Of a DNA stretch of 52,439 bases, positions 18,750 through 48,954 are shown one piece after another. The position numbers and the translations under genes are program-made. The stretch is taken from assembly GCA_016929065.1 (NCBI GenBank), contig JAFGJO010000048.1, positions 1 through 52,439 of the forward strand, given 5' to 3'. The first letter of the stretch is position 1; the number at the start of each line of letters is the position of its first letter. Under the pieces are notes generated by a model, which saw only the letters and a program-made list of their open reading frames with translations, did not search any database and was not told the origin of the DNA. This stretch comes from Spirochaetales bacterium. GTDB taxonomy: Bacteria > Spirochaetota > Spirochaetia > SZUA-6 > RPPD01.

Positions 18750-19670
18750 ATGAAAATACCATCCCGGCTGCAACGGATCATCATCGATGCGCTCTCCCAG
18801 TCACTTCCGGTTCACACCATGGTCCGTATCGCAAAGAATGTCGACCCTGACTATGATCTGTATGAACGCACCGGTTTCCCTGCCAATATCCCCATTCCGA
18901 ACATCAATGCCGCACGGCAAATCACCACAGACATTATCGCACAGGGTTTGCTTATCGATTTTATTGAAGTGCTGATCGATGTCCATGAAAACGGACTGAT
19001 GGGAAAAACCACAAGTATCCGGTTTCTTCAGCAGATAATAAAGGAGATATCAGCACTCGGATTTACCTATAATGCCGACGAGGGGTCTTTTATTGAGAAA
19101 AGCGACGGGAAAAAAACCCAGAACTGGGGAATTCTGCTTGAAGGAAAAATGTATGACCTCACCTTCATGAGTATCGATATTGTGGATAATACACAGCTTG
19201 TAAGAAAATATAACAGGGAAGTCATACAGGAAGTCTACAGTAATCTCCGTGATATTTTTACCCGGCAGGTTGAAAAAAGGAACGGCCGTATCTGGTGCTG
19301 GGAGGGAGATGGCGGCCTCGCCGCGTTCAATTTTGATGACAAAAACGTCAAAGCAGTATTAAGCGGGATTGACATTCTGCTTGATGTTTTTTTGTATAAT
19401 CTGTTTAAATGCCCGTTAAAACAACCGGTATCCATACGGATTGCTGTACATAACGGATCATGTCAGTTTCAATTCAACGCGACCGACATTCAGTCGGAGA
19501 CTCTGCGCACGCTCGATAAAATAATGAGCAATCACGCCACACCCGACAGTCTTATCATATCACCCGGGGTATACTCTGATTTGGGAAGCAAACTGGAGCT
19601 TTTTTTCAAACCCGTAACGCTCCGCAACGGGAAATACAATTATCAGTACCGGCTCGAGTGGGAGGAATAA
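18750..19670 (+). CDS. Class III nucleotidyl cyclase-like protein, C1-type half
   Basis: The 306-residue soluble protein has an unassigned helical N-terminal region (about 1-125) and a class III cyclase domain (about 135-300). Both metal-binding aspartates look present: Asp143 in FMSIDIVDNTQ and Asp187 in WEGDGGLAAF. The region that should read G-D-x-V-N-x-A-x-R reads IQSETLRTLDKI, so the base-recognition Asp and the Asn/Arg transition-state pair are missing. The next gene shows the opposite loss, which suggests a heterodimer. There is no membrane segment. The ribosome binding site is weak. Cyclase activity is inferred, and the substrate cannot be told. Confidence 0.78.
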   Translation: MKIPSRLQRIIIDALSQSLPVHTMVRIAKNVDPDYDLYERTGFPANIPIPNINAARQITTDIIAQGLLIDFIEVLIDVHENGLMGKTTSIRFLQQIIKEISALGFTYNADEGSFIEKSDGKKTQNWGILLEGKMYDLTFMSIDIVDNTQLVRKYNREVIQEVYSNLRDIFTRQVEKRNGRIWCWEGDGGLAAFNFDDKNVKAVLSGIDILLDVFLYNLFKCPLKQPVSIRIAVHNGSCQFQFNATDIQSETLRTLDKIMSNHATPDSLIISPGVYSDLGSKLELFFKPVTLRNGKYNYQYRLEWEE

Positions 19671-19672
19671 AC

Positions 19673-20647
19673 ATGGATGTAGTCATTTTTACCAACTCAG
19701 TCTCCATTCAGAAACACATGAGAACCAAGGGATTCTACTCTCTCCCAACCTCCGAAATCAGGAAGGCCCTCGCACAGTACAGCGGACCGGTGATTGTCTA
19801 TATTGATATTGAAAGCATTGGAGAGAAATGGGAAAAGACTGTTTCATCCATTGCACGAAGGCAGCATGTTTTCCTGGGGCTGCTTGATCCAAAGAAAAAA
19901 ATAAAGAGACCTCTTGATCTGATACATGCCGGCGTTGTAGATATCGCCATCCACAAGGAAATCGAAGAGGAATTCGGCGTCCGGCGTATCCGGAAAGTGA
20001 CCAATTACCTTAAAAAATTCCGTCTCGATTTTTCAGCCGAAGCCGAGCACGAAAAAAAGATTGCAGCAAAATCCATTGAATATATTCCCGTGGCGGGCGG
20101 ATGGCAGGACATCCATCCCGGTAAAGAATATACATTTTCCATCATGTTTGTCGAAATGGATGATGAACAGGAAATCCTCAAGAAATTCGGAAAACGGAAT
20201 CTGGAAAGCGCGCTGGAGGTATTCCGCCGTTATATCGAGCGGAACATCACTGCATTTGGCGGCCGCATGTGGATGTGGTCCCAGTTCGGCGGGGTTATCC
20301 TGTTCCCGTTTAATGCAAACGAGAGCAATGCCGTGCTTTGCGGGTTCCGCATCATGCTCTATAAATTCATGCACGATGTGGAAGAATCCTATTTTCCCAA
20401 TTTTATCTCATTCAGGGTTGCCCTGCACCTGGGAAATCTCGCTTACCAGGAAGAAAACACCGGTGATGTCATTGCAGATTCCATCAACTCAATCTTTCAT
20501 CTGGGACGAAAATATACCGAGCCGGGCAATTTCGATGTGACCGAAGAAATCTTCAATTATTCACCGGTAAAATTAAAATCTTTTTTTAAACGGGTGGGCG
20601 AATTTGAATCACACTCCATTCTCCGGATGAAACGCCCGGTCCTGTAA
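19673..20647 (+). CDS. Class III cyclase-like protein, C2-type half with receiver-like N-terminus
   Basis: I chose the ATG at 19673, two bases after the previous stop and preceded by GGAGG (324 residues). Residues 1-115 resemble a degenerate receiver domain: alternating strands, with Asp45 in IVYIDIES and LLDPKKK near 71. The cyclase-like domain spans about 150-315. The first metal Asp is Glu161 (FVEMDDEQ), and the second is replaced near Phe205 (WSQFGGVILF). The base/ribose segment is kept as VIADSINSIFHL, with Asp269 and Asn272; the Arg position is His276. Alone it should be inactive. The complementary pattern to the upstream gene fits a C1/C2 pair. Confidence 0.78.
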   Translation: MDVVIFTNSVSIQKHMRTKGFYSLPTSEIRKALAQYSGPVIVYIDIESIGEKWEKTVSSIARRQHVFLGLLDPKKKIKRPLDLIHAGVVDIAIHKEIEEEFGVRRIRKVTNYLKKFRLDFSAEAEHEKKIAAKSIEYIPVAGGWQDIHPGKEYTFSIMFVEMDDEQEILKKFGKRNLESALEVFRRYIERNITAFGGRMWMWSQFGGVILFPFNANESNAVLCGFRIMLYKFMHDVEESYFPNFISFRVALHLGNLAYQEENTGDVIADSINSIFHLGRKYTEPGNFDVTEEIFNYSPVKLKSFFKRVGEFESHSILRMKRPVL

Positions 20648-36544: not shown

Positions 36545-38200
36545 TTATTTATGATCCATTTTCCGTACACCTGTCCATTCTGCAGGCGGATTCTGCTCGT
36601 ATTCCACACATTGTGTATACATCATGTTTGCAGCATGGTCATCTTTGAGTATGTTCAGGACATTGCGAAATCCTGCGGCGGCCTTCTGGAATTGACCTGC
36701 ATAATACGGCTCCATTGCATTATTATGAATCTCCCAGGCTTCGCGTTCCAGACTGCTGAGCTCACGCCGGGTGGTAAATATTCTTATCCCGTCGGCACGC
36801 CCCTTTACCGCAACCCTGTCGATTTCGCGGCAATACAACTTGTCCTTGATTTTCCGCTGAAGGCTTTCAGAAAACAATAATTTCTGTTTGTAATCCTTGG
36901 TTAACCCCTCCAGCCGTGAAGCCAGGTTCACCATGTCGCCGATAACCGTATAATCCATCTTTTTTTCTGTGCCGATGTTCCCCACAGTCACAAAGCCGTA
37001 ATTGATGCCCACGCCAATATGGAATGCCGGCATCCCCCGCTTGACCTGGTCGCGGTTAAAATCCAGAACCCGCTCTGTCATTTCAAGTCCTGCCATCACC
37101 GACTGGAGTGCATCATCCTCGTGCCGTACCGGCGCACCAAAAAAGGCCATGATCGCATCGCCGATATATTTATCTACAATTCCCTTGCGGCCAAAGATGA
37201 TATCGACCATAACAGAAAAATACCTGTTCAATGAGTTAACGATCTCGTCGGGAGGAAGCCTTTCCGAGATAGTGGTAAAATCACGGATATCAGAAAACAG
37301 GATTGACAATACCCGGTTGTCACCGACAAGCATTTCACCGGGATTTTCAAAAAATTTGTCGATGAGTTCCTGGGGGACATACCGCTGAAAAATATTTCTA
37401 ATTTTCGATTCGCGTTTCTGGGAAAGTACTGCATCCAGGGCGAATTTGCGAATCTGTCGGTCAGCCTTGCCCAGTTCGCCGACCATCAGATTAAAGGTGT
37501 GCGCAAGCTCTCCGGTCTCGTCCTGAAACTCTACCGGCACCCGCTTGGTAAGATCACTGTCCGTGATGATCTCTTTCATTGTGTTCACCACTGTAGTCAG
37601 CGGTTTTGTCAGTAATTGTGCCACGATATAAAGGATGATGACGGCAAAAATAATCGACACGATCAGGGTCCCTGCGGTCTGATAAGTGATGGTATTTACA
37701 TCCTTGAAAAATTCACTTTTTTGTTCGGTGATCATGATAAACCACCCGAATGGCTCGAAATAAAAACCTCTTCCGACCCGTTCAACCCCGCCGAGCGTTA
37801 TCGTTTTCAGTTCCTGTGACTTTTCATCGAACAGTTTTTTCAATATTTCTTTATCTGACTCAAGCAGTTCAATTTCGTTTGTCCGCATTGTCAATTCAAG
37901 ATTCTTGTCAACAGCAAAAATAAGTTCTGTGGGACTTTCCATCTTGTTGATGGCCTCGGAAGTGACTCCCGCCTGGGCAGCCTTGATCATCTCGGTGTTG
38001 TCCGTGAGGTTGTTGTCCACCAGAAGGCCCCATTGCTTTTCTGTTTCCTCACGGAGGGTTTTGACCTTATAGCTCAAAAAGCTGTTCGCAAGCCGGGTAA
38101 TTCCCGATGTTGCGGAAAAATACGCCCACATCCCGGAAATCCCCAGAAACAAAATCAACACCGGGACAACAACGAGAATTATCTTCGATCGTATCTTCAT
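36545..38200 (-). CDS. Membrane adenylate cyclase with sensor and HAMP domains
   Basis: The 551-residue protein has a transmembrane helix (about 7-28), a periplasmic sensor of about 150 residues, and a second helix (about 183-206). A HAMP domain (about 207-262, ending ETGELAHTFNLMVGEL) precedes a class III cyclase domain (about 290-470). Catalytic residues are complete: FSDIRDFT and YIGDAIMAFFGAP for metals, KKMDYTVIGDMVNLASRLE for the adenine-specific Lys and Asp and the Asn/Arg pair. It should therefore make cAMP. A C-terminal helical region (about 490-540) resembles a TPR. It is the only one of the four cyclase-like proteins here with all residues. Confidence 0.92.
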   Translation of the reverse strand: MKIRSKIILVVVPVLILFLGISGMWAYFSATSGITRLANSFLSYKVKTLREETEKQWGLLVDNNLTDNTEMIKAAQAGVTSEAINKMESPTELIFAVDKNLELTMRTNEIELLESDKEILKKLFDEKSQELKTITLGGVERVGRGFYFEPFGWFIMITEQKSEFFKDVNTITYQTAGTLIVSIIFAVIILYIVAQLLTKPLTTVVNTMKEIITDSDLTKRVPVEFQDETGELAHTFNLMVGELGKADRQIRKFALDAVLSQKRESKIRNIFQRYVPQELIDKFFENPGEMLVGDNRVLSILFSDIRDFTTISERLPPDEIVNSLNRYFSVMVDIIFGRKGIVDKYIGDAIMAFFGAPVRHEDDALQSVMAGLEMTERVLDFNRDQVKRGMPAFHIGVGINYGFVTVGNIGTEKKMDYTVIGDMVNLASRLEGLTKDYKQKLLFSESLQRKIKDKLYCREIDRVAVKGRADGIRIFTTRRELSSLEREAWEIHNNAMEPYYAGQFQKAAAGFRNVLNILKDDHAANMMYTQCVEYEQNPPAEWTGVRKMDHK

Positions 38201-38961: not shown

Positions 38962-40125
38962 CTACCGCTGCCCGTACCGCTGAAATATGTCTTCAGAAAT
39001 AATATCGGTCTCATCAGCATAGCGGTTCCGGTATGCGTCGATCCACGCGTGGTGATAGTGCATGCAGCGAAGTTTCTCTCCCCGGGCCGCAAGCCGTTTT
39101 TTTTCCCGGCGGAGGGAATTCAAAAACGGGTCATTGAAAAAAATATCAGGTAAAGACCGGGTATAAATCGAGGCCCGGGAATGTGCGGCAGGAACGGCAA
39201 AACACGGGCCGATTTGGCCGTTATGGTATACGCAAAAGGTATAGGTCCCTGCAGGGCAGGCAGTGAATTGCTCCTCTGTCCCCAAAAGATCAAACGCGAG
39301 TATATTTTTTATCTGTTTGTTCAGCCGAAGTGTGATGTCAAACAAACTGCTGTATTCCTTTCCTGACAAAACATTTTCCCGGTCATTCGGATCCACCGCG
39401 CCATAGGGTAAAAACACAGCGAGGGAAACTCCCTGTTCTTGTAAAAATTTCAGATATCCGGCAGTGGTCACTTCTTTCCAATTCTGCCGGCTGACCATAG
39501 TCGAGGTTCCGAACAGCATGCGTTCTTTCCGCATAGCGTGCATCACGCTCAGCTGTGTTTCAGCCGCATTGGTTCCCTTGCGGGCATCGGTCGCTGCCGG
39601 CATCCCGTCAACACTGATCATGGGGATAATGTTCCCCGCCCGCTTCATGCTGCCTGCGTTTTCTGCCGATATTTTGAGTCCGTCGGTGAACAAGAGAAAC
39701 AATTGATGCCGCTGCCGGCCAAGAACCTTGATTAATGTATCAATATCTTCACGATAAAAGGGATCAGCACCAAGCATATATATTGTCGAAATATTCATGG
39801 ATGCAGCCTCTTTACACAGCAATGCAAGACGCGGCAGCGGTATCCGCTTTTTCTGGTCATGATAGGTTCTTAAAAAGCACCCTTTACACGATGCGCCGCA
39901 ATCCACAGAATCGATTATTTGAAGCGAAGTGGGAAAAGAAATGCCTCGAAATATTTTTTTTGACAAAGACCGGATATTTTTTTTCAGCCGGAGCAGGATC
40001 ACCCTGATAAATGCCCGGCGTTCAGCTTTGTGCACAATAAACAGCGCCCTTAAAGAGAAGCGAAACCACTGCGGGAAAAAACGGACAAGATAGTACAAAT
40101 TTGATGTCTGATTTCCAAAAAGCAT
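38962..40125 (-). CDS. Radical SAM protein 1 with variant SAM motif
   Basis: Radical SAM enzymes use a [4Fe-4S] cluster and SAM to make a 5'-deoxyadenosyl radical. The cluster motif is DCGASCKGCF (Cys76, Cys80, Cys83), in a basic, mostly helical protein of 387 residues whose first 60 residues are Arg/Phe-rich and may touch the membrane. The usual GGEP is replaced by LGADPF. Later cysteines (FTACPAGTYTFCV, QIGPCFA) could bind a second cluster. Its reaction is unknown. It is the third of a row of three different radical SAM genes, 22 bp after the second. Confidence 0.88.
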   Translation of the reverse strand: MLFGNQTSNLYYLVRFFPQWFRFSLRALFIVHKAERRAFIRVILLRLKKNIRSLSKKIFRGISFPTSLQIIDSVDCGASCKGCFLRTYHDQKKRIPLPRLALLCKEAASMNISTIYMLGADPFYREDIDTLIKVLGRQRHQLFLLFTDGLKISAENAGSMKRAGNIIPMISVDGMPAATDARKGTNAAETQLSVMHAMRKERMLFGTSTMVSRQNWKEVTTAGYLKFLQEQGVSLAVFLPYGAVDPNDRENVLSGKEYSSLFDITLRLNKQIKNILAFDLLGTEEQFTACPAGTYTFCVYHNGQIGPCFAVPAAHSRASIYTRSLPDIFFNDPFLNSLRREKKRLAARGEKLRCMHYHHAWIDAYRNRYADETDIISEDIFQRYGQR

Positions 40126-40147
40126 TTATTCCTCTATAATAGATCAG

Positions 40148-41503
40148 CTACACTTCGCCGCGTGCACGCTCGCTCATTCTTGACGCATGGTATTCTTTTC
40201 CTCTGCTGTTGTAAATACAGGCACAGACATCCTCATCCTTAAGCGACTGCAGTGTCGGGCAGAAGTCTGTTTTTTCAATATCCTGAAACCGGGCGCTCTC
40301 ATAGCTTTCAACCGCAAGAACAAACATCGCAATTTTTTGCTTTCTGCGGAAAACAAGACCCTGTATTGCGATACTGATCAGCTGAATGACTGCACGATAC
40401 CGGAGCCCGCGGATGACCGCCAATAAAGGTTTGATATACCGGTTCTGTATTGTTCTGCCGGGTGCAATCGACTGCAAAGCCTTCCATACATCCGGCACAC
40501 GCAGCAGATCTTTCATTGTATGGGTTTTCTTCGCAGTATTCACCACAACATTGACCACTGTACAATCAGGATGCATATACAGCCCCCAGGGCTGTATTCC
40601 GGGAAACGGCCAAAAATCATTCACGTGCATCGTGGTATGAAATATTGCTGCGCTGCAGATCCCGGCGAGTATAGTCTCGCGGTCGATAATCTCGAAATCA
40701 TCGATGCCGAACCGTCCCGAATTCACCGCTCCCTGAATCATAACCCGCTTTAACAGCGGCCCCAACCCGGCAAGATATTCAAGGAGACCGGGAAGCTCAT
40801 CTGCATTCGATCGGATCACCGTTGTCACAATGCCCAGGCGTATCCCTGCCCTGACAATATTCCGAAGTGCCCGTTTTTTCAAGGACAAAGGCCGGTCACC
40901 GCGCAGCAGTCTGTGTACAGCCGGATCAAGAGTATCAAACTGAATATCCACCTCCCATACACCTGCCCGTTTTACTTTTTTTGCGAACCCCGGGTCTCTT
41001 CCCAGACGATACCCGTTTGTCACGAGAATCGCCCGCATTCCCGTTTTCTTTATAATCCGTATAATTCCGAGGATATCCGGATGCAGGGTCGGCTCCCCTC
41101 CGAACAGGGAAACGGTTTTTATACCCCGGCTTTTCAGTCGTTTCAGTCTGACAACCAGTTGTTCAGCGGATAAAAACTGCGGGTGCTCCTGATACACGGC
41201 ATTTGCAAAGCAGATACTGCAGCCGGCATCACAGTGAAAGGTCAAATTCAAAAAGGTCGCATACGGTTTTTTATAAATTTTTTGTACAGGCCGATTCCTG
41301 TCAATATATGAAAAAAAGGACCTGTTTCTGTTTTGTATAAAAAAGTCTGCATTCGCCGAAAGCAGATATTCCTGCTTTTGCACCGGGCAGTCAAGTACTC
41401 CATAGATACAGTTTTCTCTCCTGACAATGCGTGCGTCATGCATGACCTGGCATTCCCGGCAGTAGGCAGATGTCCTTGAAATAATATGCACTGTCTGCAT
41501 CAC
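40148..41503 (-). CDS. Radical SAM protein 2 with N-terminal Cys cluster (Tes/MJ0619-like)
   Basis: The 451-residue protein has the cluster motif FHCDAGCSICF (Cys91, Cys95, Cys98) and SLFGGEPTLHPDI. Its N-terminus carries four further cysteines (CRECQ at 15-19, then Cys32 and DCP at Cys39), with the pattern C-x2-C...CP. This resembles the MJ0619/tetraether-synthase-type radical SAM family, which couples lipid chains. The match is by eye and partial. A C-terminal region adds a hydrophobic stretch (RYRAVIQLISIAIQGLVF, about 371-388). It starts 14 bp after radical SAM 3. Confidence 0.85.
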   Translation of the reverse strand: MMQTVHIISRTSAYCRECQVMHDARIVRRENCIYGVLDCPVQKQEYLLSANADFFIQNRNRSFFSYIDRNRPVQKIYKKPYATFLNLTFHCDAGCSICFANAVYQEHPQFLSAEQLVVRLKRLKSRGIKTVSLFGGEPTLHPDILGIIRIIKKTGMRAILVTNGYRLGRDPGFAKKVKRAGVWEVDIQFDTLDPAVHRLLRGDRPLSLKKRALRNIVRAGIRLGIVTTVIRSNADELPGLLEYLAGLGPLLKRVMIQGAVNSGRFGIDDFEIIDRETILAGICSAAIFHTTMHVNDFWPFPGIQPWGLYMHPDCTVVNVVVNTAKKTHTMKDLLRVPDVWKALQSIAPGRTIQNRYIKPLLAVIRGLRYRAVIQLISIAIQGLVFRRKQKIAMFVLAVESYESARFQDIEKTDFCPTLQSLKDEDVCACIYNSRGKEYHASRMSERARGEV

Positions 41504-41517
41504 TCCCGTCAGCCGGA

Positions 41518-42603
41518 TTAATACAGGATTTTGGGCTGATATACCCGAAACCCCTTCTCGCGCAGCGGCCTGATAATATCAGAGAGATAATTGTTGGCAT
41601 CAACCCTGTTTTTTCTTTTGTACGCTACCAGGGCCGGATTTTTCAAAATTGTTTGCAGTGGTGTTTCAAGCACGTTTCCATACGTCGGCGTGTATTCAAA
41701 ACGGTCTGTTCTGACATTGCCCTCGGGATCGATGCATACCTGGTGGTTTTCCCGGGGGACAATTCCATGGGGCGTCATTTTTCCAAAATACCCTTCATTA
41801 AAAAAAATCGGGTACTTGCGTACCAGCATTTGAAGATGCTTTAAAAACCGCAAACGGTCGATTTCCGGAAGAACAATCCTGTGATTTTTCACCTGGAAAT
41901 GAGAATAAATAACAACAACGCCCCTATCAACGACCGATTTGATAAAATCGGAATCAAGTTGTTGCAACCAGTCATCTGCCCGTGTTGTCAGTGAAATAGC
42001 GACCGATACATCCGCATCGACAAGCCGCTGTATTCCCGCCATTGCAGTATCAAAAACTCCCTTTCCCCGGACTTCGTCGGTCATGGATTTTGGACCGTCA
42101 ACACTCACCGCAAATGCAACATTCCTCCGTCCCCTGACCGCATGAACCAGGCGGTCGGTAATTAATGTTCCGTTTGTGCAAAAAGTGAAAAAGGCATTCG
42201 AATATTTTTTTATAAACGGGGCAATCATCGAGAATGATTTTTCGACCGTCGGCTCGCCGCCCATAAACACCAGCCGGCTGATCCCCAGCGCCATGGCCTC
42301 CCGGATAATCTTTTCAAGACATTGCGCGGTCATGAAGATGTTTTTATTCGGAGCATAACACTCCTTGCAGGCAATATTGCATTTCATTGTCGGCTCAATA
42401 ATGATCTGTTTCGGAAGAAACATCTTTGAGCCGTGAATCTGGCGGCTGACTGCATTGACCACACGCCCGCGGATGATCTGTGTATATAAAAACGGTACAA
42501 GGCGGGTAATCGGCTTGCTCAGCACATTCAGCCACAGATTCCCGCTGATATGCGTGCCGCCCGCACTGCCCAATGTGTCATGCCATAATCGATAAAATCC
42601 CAT
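41518..42603 (-). CDS. Radical SAM protein 3
   Basis: The 361-residue protein has the cluster motif KCNIACKECY (Cys75, Cys79, Cys82) and VFMGGEPTVEKS, then TFCTNGTLIT and AFAVSVDGP. These are the typical barrel strands of MoaA/PqqE-like radical SAM enzymes. The first 60 residues are hydrophobic/basic and unusual for that group. Only one cysteine (HQVCIDPEGNV) remains where a SPASM domain would have several, so it may lack auxiliary clusters. It is the first of the three tandem genes, with AAGGAG before the ATG. Substrate unknown. Confidence 0.88.
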   Translation of the reverse strand: MGFYRLWHDTLGSAGGTHISGNLWLNVLSKPITRLVPFLYTQIIRGRVVNAVSRQIHGSKMFLPKQIIIEPTMKCNIACKECYAPNKNIFMTAQCLEKIIREAMALGISRLVFMGGEPTVEKSFSMIAPFIKKYSNAFFTFCTNGTLITDRLVHAVRGRRNVAFAVSVDGPKSMTDEVRGKGVFDTAMAGIQRLVDADVSVAISLTTRADDWLQQLDSDFIKSVVDRGVVVIYSHFQVKNHRIVLPEIDRLRFLKHLQMLVRKYPIFFNEGYFGKMTPHGIVPRENHQVCIDPEGNVRTDRFEYTPTYGNVLETPLQTILKNPALVAYKRKNRVDANNYLSDIIRPLREKGFRVYQPKILY

Positions 42604-46804: not shown

Positions 46805-47587
46805 TTATTCCAGCTCCAGCTCAAGTGCCCGTTGTGCCGCGGCATTCACCGCTTCCATGACAATGGCAGTAAACGCGCCGTCCTCGAGTGTACGGATCCC
46901 TTCAATAGTAGTCCCGGCCGGTGAGGCAACACGGCTTACCAGTTCCGATGGATGTATTTTTTGAGCGCGGAGTATATTCACCGCTCCCTCGACTGTATCA
47001 AGGGCAATATTCAGGGAATCAGGATATTTAATCCCGGCTTCGACCCCGCCCATTGCCAGTGCATTGATAAATTCAAATACATAAGCAATTCCGGAACCCG
47101 AGAGTCCGGTGAAGGCGGCCATCAGCTTTTCAGGGATTTCATAGGGTGTTCCGATTGCTTCGGCAATAGAGAGTGCTTCTTTTGAATATTTTTCGCCGCA
47201 ATCAGGATGACAGGATACAGCGACCGGTGAGGCAGCCACTGAAGCGGCCAGGTTCTGCATGAAGCGAATGACATTTTTTGTATTCAATGCCTTTGCCATT
47301 GCATCGATCGATACGCCGGCCATCATGCTGACAATGCCCTTCCCCTCGGTGTGTTTTCCGATGAGCGGATACAGAGCTGCAACTTCCTGCGGTTTGACTG
47401 CAAGAACAATGATATCGGCCGTTTTTGCCGCTTCGTCCGCTTCCATGACAACAAGGTTGTATTCCTTTTCTGCAATCTCCCTGCGCGGCAGATGTTTTTC
47501 AACAACGACCGGTTTTATATTTTTTTTTATCAGCCCCTCACAGAGCGCAGTGCCCATATTCCCAAATCCGATTATCCCGTATTTCAT
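46805..47587 (-). CDS. proC: Pyrroline-5-carboxylate reductase
   Basis: ProC reduces 1-pyrroline-5-carboxylate to proline with NAD(P)H. The Rossmann motif IIGFGNMGTALCEGL (about 4-18) opens the protein. GLSGSGIAYVFEFINALAMGGVEAGI (about 165-190) is the catalytic/dimer segment, and SPAGTTIEGIRTLE (about 224-237) is the family signature. At 260 residues the length is normal. It overlaps the upstream pseudo-cyclase gene by four bases (ATGA), an unusual partner; otherwise it looks ordinary. Confidence 0.96.
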   Translation of the reverse strand: MKYGIIGFGNMGTALCEGLIKKNIKPVVVEKHLPRREIAEKEYNLVVMEADEAAKTADIIVLAVKPQEVAALYPLIGKHTEGKGIVSMMAGVSIDAMAKALNTKNVIRFMQNLAASVAASPVAVSCHPDCGEKYSKEALSIAEAIGTPYEIPEKLMAAFTGLSGSGIAYVFEFINALAMGGVEAGIKYPDSLNIALDTVEGAVNILRAQKIHPSELVSRVASPAGTTIEGIRTLEDGAFTAIVMEAVNAAAQRALELELE

Positions 47588-48954
47588 ACGACAAGTTCCT
47601 TTCGTGCTGCAATCTTTTCAAAATTTCTTTTTTCCCGTTTGTTTTGCGGTGAATCAGGATATAATGCATACACCCCAACCGTCTCGGGACGGTCTTTGAT
47701 GCGGGCACGGCCAAGCCTGCGGAATTCCAGATTTGATTCCTGTTCGCGGTAGGACACATCCGAGACAATCACCGGTGCACGCACGATCTTTGTAATTTTT
47801 AATATAGCCCCTGATGTGTCGACGGTTTTTCCAAAGACAGCACAATCAATGCTTTCATCTGTACCAATCGGATGGAATATTACCCATCCGGTATGAATGC
47901 CGATGCCCACTTCCGCTTTGGGTTCCCGGGAGCGGACACGGTTCAGGTTAAAGCCGTCGCAGTACTGCGCGATGGCCAGAGCCGCGTTCACCGCACCGGT
48001 CGCATCGCCTCCGGTGTTAAATGATTCTCCGAATACCGCGACCACCTTGCCGGCCTGCTGGGAAGCGATGATCCCATTGCCCAGAAAAACCGCACGCCGA
48101 ATCTCCCGGTAAACCCCCTCAAGCAGCTGCGCAAGCACTGCTGCAGAGAGTTCCTGTGCCAGACGCCCATAGTTGGTAATCACTGCAGTGACCACCGTCG
48201 CCTTTGTCCGTGTCCCTTCGATGGGAAGTTTTTCCTTATTCTGGAGTATCCGGCCGGTACCAATGTCACCGGCAATTCTGCCGAGCCGGTCCACGATAAC
48301 GGTTCTGAAAATATTTTTATGACTGCGGAAGATCAGGTAAAACGAAAAAACAATGCAGGCGACAAAGAGTCCCGCCGGAAGATAGATTCTGAAATCTGTA
48401 AAACTGGTCAGGCTATAATAGGACCACATGAGTCCCGGGACAAGCAGGGTCAGACCCGCGAACATTCCAAGGAAAAAAAGAACAGTATAAATCCCTGCAT
48501 AGAGACTGCCTCTCGCAGTATTCAAAAAAATATAGAGCACCCCAAAAAGGCAGAAATAGAGAATAAAAGCAGGAACAAATTCATTGTTAAACGGCAGGCT
48601 CCTCATCGCGGTGTAAATGACATAGCTGATACAGACAACATCCAGTGTAATCGCAAAATATTTCAGTGATGAACTGAAAAACCGGTATAATTTTTTAAAC
48701 ATGCCGCGTGACAACACAAAACTGTAAACAAGGAGAAAAAAAGAAACAAACAGCCCGCCCAGACGGAACATGACATCGACAGTGACCAGTTTCAAAGTCA
48801 GCGGCTGCTGTTCTGCAATAATTTGCCAGGCCGCCAAGCCGCACAGGGCAACAAAGCAGAGTAACCGGATAAAGCTGATAAACACTTCTGCCCGAATCCC
48901 CTCCCGGATGATCTGTTTTTCTGCCTGCGGCTGCTCACCGATAATATTTTTCAT
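47584..48954 (-). CDS. Membrane-bound degenerate cyclase domain protein
   Basis: The 456-residue protein has about six transmembrane helices (residues 24-215) and a C-terminal class III cyclase-like domain (about 255-430). All key residues are changed: the first Asp is Val (VVTAVITNYGRLA), the second is Gly in AGKVVAVFGES, and the N/R segment reads FGKTVDTSGAILK. It is probably a pseudo-enzyme that binds nucleotides or a partner, not a cyclase. GIHTGWVIFHPIG keeps the fold's glycine strand. It overlaps proC by four bases and so drives its translation. GAAAGAGAG precedes the ATG. Confidence 0.82.
   Translation of the reverse strand: MKNIIGEQPQAEKQIIREGIRAEVFISFIRLLCFVALCGLAAWQIIAEQQPLTLKLVTVDVMFRLGGLFVSFFLLVYSFVLSRGMFKKLYRFFSSSLKYFAITLDVVCISYVIYTAMRSLPFNNEFVPAFILYFCLFGVLYIFLNTARGSLYAGIYTVLFFLGMFAGLTLLVPGLMWSYYSLTSFTDFRIYLPAGLFVACIVFSFYLIFRSHKNIFRTVIVDRLGRIAGDIGTGRILQNKEKLPIEGTRTKATVVTAVITNYGRLAQELSAAVLAQLLEGVYREIRRAVFLGNGIIASQQAGKVVAVFGESFNTGGDATGAVNAALAIAQYCDGFNLNRVRSREPKAEVGIGIHTGWVIFHPIGTDESIDCAVFGKTVDTSGAILKITKIVRAPVIVSDVSYREQESNLEFRRLGRARIKDRPETVGVYALYPDSPQNKREKRNFEKIAARKELVV

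Follow-up and report, generated by a model that had tools for sequence, protein, structure and literature searches.

In mammalian adenylyl cyclase (AC), the metal aspartates belong to the first cyclase domain (C1), and the base-recognising Asp, the Asn, and the Arg belong to the second (C2). A similar division is known in soluble guanylyl cyclase (sGC), whose alpha and beta subunits are homologous products of separate genes that share out the key residues and leave a pseudo-symmetric second cavity; this division is what makes the human homodimers inactive (PMC3591389). The heterodimeric rhodopsin-cyclases of fungi represent a further eukaryotic case (PMC8815786), and heterodimerisation has been described as a eukaryotic invention that arose via duplication and fusion. 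According to a 2022 review, class III ACs in bacteria are monomeric proteins that assemble into homodimers, and fused dimeric bacterial species are unknown (PMC9552081). The homodimeric enzymes Rv1625c, CyaC, and Ma1120 carry a full residue set in each monomer and have two equivalent sites. The nearest bacterial case to the locus described here is a class III AC-like ATP-binding protein of Pseudomonas aeruginosa (PDB 6yii), in which two degenerate cyclase domains are joined in one chain and for which no cyclase activity is reported.

The window analysed here, a stretch of 52,439 nucleotides from a Spirochaetales bacterium (contig JAFGJO010000048.1), contains two adjacent forward-strand genes, A and B, whose products divide such residues between them. 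Gene A (18750..19670) is an open reading frame of 306 aa composed of an all-helical N-terminal domain (residues 1-124; 18750..19121) and a class III cyclase domain, and would be the C1-like, metal-supplying subunit. Gene B (19673..20647) is an open reading frame of 324 aa with a receiver-like N-terminus (approximately residues 1-118; 19673..20026) and a class III cyclase domain, and would be the C2-like subunit supplying Asp, Asn, and His. A ends with TAA at 19668-19670 and B starts with ATG at 19673 in a different reading frame. The original prediction of two adjacent genes separated by 2 bp was correct in strand, coordinates, and gap; its statement that the pair lies under one promoter was not shown, the scan upstream of A having detected nothing exceeding chance.

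Comparison with the described systems shows both likenesses and differences. The order of roles, A and then B, matches that of mammalian C1/C2 and of the tandem domains of human soluble AC (sAC), but the mammalian domains are fused in one chain whereas A and B are two proteins, and the Lys and Arg of C2 correspond to Met and His in B. With sGC the pair has in common homologous subunits encoded by separate genes; however, sGC is eukaryotic, has haem/PAS regulatory domains, and possesses a guanine-specific pocket, whereas A-B is bacterial, is encoded in one bicistron, has helical and receiver-like N-termini, uses His for Arg, and has a base pocket of neither the AC nor the guanylyl cyclase (GC) type. 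Rv1625c, CyaC, and Ma1120 resemble A-B in the class III fold of each half, and 6yii differs in being a single chain, while A-B consists of two genes with complementary conserved half-sites. The original prediction knew of no bacterial heterodimer of this kind encoded in an operon, and no bacterial heterodimeric class III cyclase was found in the open-access literature searched. As far as that literature goes, the two-gene heterodimeric organisation, known from animals and fungi, appears to be undescribed in bacteria.

The residues of the two proteins were examined in 94 A and 92 B sequences, 88 of the B rows being readable. Both metal aspartates of A, Asp143 (19176..19178) and Asp187 (19308..19310, within the motif GRxWxWEGDGG), are invariant (94/94). 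The Asn and Arg/His positions of A (residues 253-257; 19506..19520) are lost, reading R253 and K257 in variable columns, and the base-recognition position is occupied by Glu250, with D or E present in 75 of the 94 relatives. In B, Glu161 (20153..20155) replaces the first metal aspartate and Phe205 (20285..20287) the second; Asp occurs at these positions in only two and eight of 87 pairs, respectively. B retains Asp269 at the base-recognition position (20477..20479; D or E in 84/88), Asn272 as the ribose/transition-state Asn (20486..20488; 88/88), and His276 at the position of the transition-state Arg (20498..20500; 87/88). Almost every residue assignment of the original prediction was thereby upheld: A keeps both metal aspartates and lacks the Asn/Arg pair, and B lacks both metal aspartates and keeps Asp269 and Asn272, with His276 for Arg. 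The exception is the claim that A lacks the base-recognition Asp, which is not cleanly lost given the acidic residue found there in most of the family. Within each protein, D143 and D187 of A and N272 and H276 of B are among the most conserved columns, and conservation is around the median or worse at F205 of B and at the positions where A has lost Asn and Arg. E161 of B is fairly conserved (64/92), more than pure decay of the metal site would require.

A scan of GTDB with one genome per species yielded 159 relatives of A, the best 80 of which, all bearing spirochaete titles, were kept for locus analysis. In 78 of these 80 independent loci, the gene immediately after A is B; in the other two, A is followed by a contig edge (L150) or a run of N (L146). 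The nearest in-frame start of B falls within 30 nt of the stop of A in 75 of the 78 loci, A and B occur together throughout the 61 relatives searched, and the frames are intact in nearly all loci. Complementarity could be assessed in 87 fully readable pairs, none of which has a full site in A alone or in B alone: no B has both metal aspartates, and no A has Asn together with His or Arg. Jointly, A and B hold all four catalytic positions in 86 of the 87 pairs and would rebuild the site with His for Arg; Arg itself is absent, and the dimer is inferred. The sole exception (L154) has Asn in place of His, and its draft genome (record prefix JAFGTF01) also bears another pair (L139). Divergent pairs from other spirochaete families (L184-L190, L193, L194, and L199-L201) display the same residue split. 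A cultured relative, Gracilinema caldarium, also has a pair (L180). The split between A and B is thus fixed across spirochaetes and is not a local decay. The predicted complementary losses therefore held, and conservation of the pair in relatives, which had been proposed as support, was strongly met in adjacency, in complementarity, and in the divergent pairs.

Several variants of this arrangement were observed. In one divergent group (L189, L190, L193, and L194), B has lost only the first metal Asp and retains the second, which perhaps represents an earlier stage of loss. One genome (G003) carries a distant A-like/B-like pair arranged head to head (L087) in which the half-sites are still complementary, and another (G022) carries A-like and B-like genes on different contigs (L088 and L089), with the metal residues in one and Asn/His in the other; the B-like open frames of these variant loci are longer (434-478 aa). 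A second A-B pair is present in the window's own genome (G000, contig C64, locus L069, 4664-6574). Its A is approximately 33% and its B approximately 24% identical to the counterpart in the first pair, the complementary residues are the same, and B follows the stop of A in frame. Chromosome CP070841 has a second B (L195, 1618-2595), in which His276 is replaced by Asn, about 64 kb from its second A (L146). In genome G019 (contig C147, 1000-2821), A is interrupted by stops and a split frame next to an intact B, which may reflect a draft error or a recent loss. At E 1e-20, 60 of 198 sampled Spirochaetota genomes matched the A profile and 53 matched that of B, some of these matches being single genes of the C type described below.

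Both proteins belong to the class III cyclase fold superfamily, as shown by profile matches and a predicted model, despite their sub-threshold Pfam scores. With PF00211, A scored 13.3 bits, below the gathering score of 21.9, and B gave no match. The profile of the A family matched class III cyclases of the PDB with an E-value of 5e-7, and that of the B family matched the class III cyclase 3mr7 (E 4e-4), with D269 and N272 aligned to the corresponding D and N of 3mr7. An AlphaFold2 (AF2) model of an orthologous A-B chain (pLDDT 91.6) has the class III fold in both halves, whose best TM-scores against class III targets in the PDB were 0.77-0.83. The original prediction had proposed structure prediction of the heterodimer versus each homodimer, which was only approximated here by linked chains, namely two natural loci (L120 and L127) in which A, its stop, and B are in frame and were read through the stop, modelled in monomer mode with no linker between A and the receiver. 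The linked models (pTM 0.77 for L120 and 0.62 for L127) align in order to sAC and AC9, with scores worth one superposed domain, and Foldseek comparison with sAC gave a TM-score of about 0.28 with an rmsd of 23-24 Å. The canonical dimer was not seen: within the limits of monomer mode without a linker, these models do not dock A on B canonically and give no support for a heterodimer, without being decisive against one.

The origin of the pair may be sought in C, a single-gene paralogue that has the A-type N-terminal domain, which B lacks, and all four catalytic residues (D143, D187, N254, and H258 invariant in 16 sequences). A and C can be aligned from about residue 12 onward, and one C paralogue (L072) passes the PF00211 gathering score with 23.6 bits. 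Loci of the C family include L072-L086, L091, L191, L192, L196, L197, L202, and L203, with metal aspartates, Asn, and His, the last replaced by Arg in L202; as this Arg occupies the column holding His in B and C (H276 and H258, respectively), the His is identified as the counterpart of the transition-state Arg. In the phylogenetic tree, one clade (support 100/100) unites A, B, and C and excludes the canonical cyclases of the window's genome, B forms one clade (97/96), C sequences lie at the base, and A falls into two groups. This topology places the origin of A and B within C-like sequences; a single origin of the losses in A is neither excluded nor shown. C, whose His at the transition-state position is unusual, is likely to be the homodimeric parent, homodimerisation being inferred. 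Homologues found alone with full catalytic sets had been named as a possible refutation of the heterodimer; such genes do exist in the form of C, but they constitute a separate paralogous lineage and look like the homodimeric parent rather than like full-site versions of A or B.

Taken together, the most probable interpretation is that A and B are obligate partners in a heterodimeric class III nucleotidyl cyclase whose one complete site is composed from both. What has been shown comprises the residues and their complementary conservation, the adjacency of the genes, the class III fold that both proteins share, and the phylogeny, whereas dimerisation, catalysis, and regulation are inferred; the proposal that a heterodimer rebuilds one C1/C2-type site is well supported, on evolutionary evidence. 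In this scenario, a homodimeric C-like cyclase would have been duplicated, each copy then losing a complementary half of the site. The cyclase domains of A and B would pair head to tail, as do sGC alpha/beta and mammalian C1/C2, with A giving the two metal-holding aspartates and B giving Asp269, Asn272, and His276 in place of the usual Arg, which would leave the dimer with a single complete active site and a degenerate pseudo-site that may be regulatory. The base pocket would be located on B, and the helical domain of A and the receiver-like domain of B may serve as regulatory inputs. Homodimers of either protein are expected to be inactive: A-A lacks Asn/His and B-B lacks metal residues, and therefore neither could be an enzyme. 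A caveat is that the replacements in B (His for the usual Arg and Met/Ile for Lys) are uncommon, and it remains possible that they mean weak or absent catalysis.

The nature of the product is uncertain. B has Met or Ile in place of the adenine-reading Lys and keeps the base Asp269, a combination that meets neither the Lys/Asp (or Thr) base-reading pair of adenylyl cyclases nor the Glu/Cys pair of guanylyl cyclases. The Met/Asp pair matches no known code, and assignment of a product from the base pocket was therefore rejected. In a bolder reading, for which the case is no stronger than the case against it, all of the following would hold jointly: A-B would be an ancient two-gene family of obligate heterodimeric cyclases that is widespread in Spirochaetota and may be the first in bacteria, derived from a homodimer by complementary loss of half-sites, with His for Arg and a pocket that is neither AC nor GC, and maybe making an unexpected cyclic nucleotide under pseudo-receiver control. 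If the heterodimer reading is true, the step regarded as a eukaryotic invention also appears in a bacterial phylum, and the amount or the modification of either subunit could control cyclase activity. Since full-site C paralogues are alive beside the split pair, the evolution of the C1/C2 division of labour would become testable. This reading also explains a conserved two-gene unit that is barely recognised by domain databases.

Alternative explanations should be considered. The A-B heterodimer might bind a nucleotide at the composite site without cyclising it, acting as a sensor or scaffold. The existence of a bacterial tandem class III-like ATP-binding protein (6yii) and the His for Arg and Met/Ile for Lys of B speak for this possibility; however, selection has kept exactly the catalytic residues (metal aspartates and Asn/His) across very divergent pairs, and the homodimer-like C family has the same His together with a full set, so that a purely sensory role is considered unlikely. 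It has less in its favour to suppose that A and B are separate homodimers, or have other partners, and that the adjacency and the losses are unrelated. Isolated sGC catalytic domains do readily homodimerise (PMC3591389), and the linked-chain models lack canonical A-B docking, but the half-sites are almost perfectly conserved in genes that stay together in nearly all loci, and each homodimer would be missing half of the site, which makes this explanation very improbable.

A similarly remote possibility is that B is a regulator or inhibitor and that A borrows Asn/Arg from the canonical cyclases of the genome. At least ten strong canonical class III matches are available there, and class III interfaces can be promiscuous (PMC3591389); yet this view leaves the retention of N272 and H276 in B and the co-occurrence of A and B across the phylum unexplained, and A is far from the canonical cyclases in the tree. 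Ordinary decay, with both genes being degenerate cyclases under weak constraint, is compatible with the position of both proteins below the Pfam cut-off, but it is contradicted by conservation, as the catalytic halves are among the most conserved columns and the frames are nearly always intact, and it can practically be ruled out.

Beyond the cyclase domains, the N-terminal regions of the two proteins are poorly recognised. The helical domain of A, for which helices H5-18 to H93-102 were predicted in the AF2 model of the orthologue, had no convincing match in a Pfam search. A receiver-like N-terminus had been predicted for B, and this held only in part: the REC profile matches are weak (the best, such as 8svz, with E 0.002), and the predicted order of strands and helices is alternating. 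The phospho-receiver set (acidic pair, acceptor Asp, Thr/Ser, and Lys) is not met, with only the beta-3 Asp (D45, conservation rank 14 of 315 columns) being kept and beta-1 reading TNS in place of the acidic pair. Because the phosphorylation pocket is missing, a true phospho-switch was rejected, and regulation of the pair by this domain is still a guess.

A Pycsar identity was also considered. A matches the PycC profiles of PADLOC (E 2e-10); however, PycC proteins form homodimers in which each chain has both metal aspartates, and they have a cognate cyclic-pyrimidine receptor/effector (PMC11224242); this identity was rejected for A-B, which has no conserved effector neighbour and whose B matches no PADLOC model. 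More generally, no neighbour of the A-B loci is widely conserved beyond the pair itself. Apart from the pair, the gene most often seen at a constant position encodes a membrane protein of some 700 aa that contains a PDZ-like stretch; it is the second gene after A in 10 loci (L111 and nine others).

The genome containing the window is rich in cyclic-nucleotide signalling, as indicated by eleven PF00211 matches, ten of them strong, and 23 matches to cyclic-nucleotide-binding domains. Within the window, the reverse strand encodes a HAMP-linked class III cyclase of canonical type in which every catalytic residue is present (36545-38200). It also encodes a membrane protein (47584-48954) whose class III domain is degenerate, scoring 21.5 bits with PF00211, just below the cut-off, and lacking a recognisable GD motif of the usual kind. 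The same strand also encodes three consecutive radical-SAM-like proteins with CxxxCxxC-type motifs (38962-42603).
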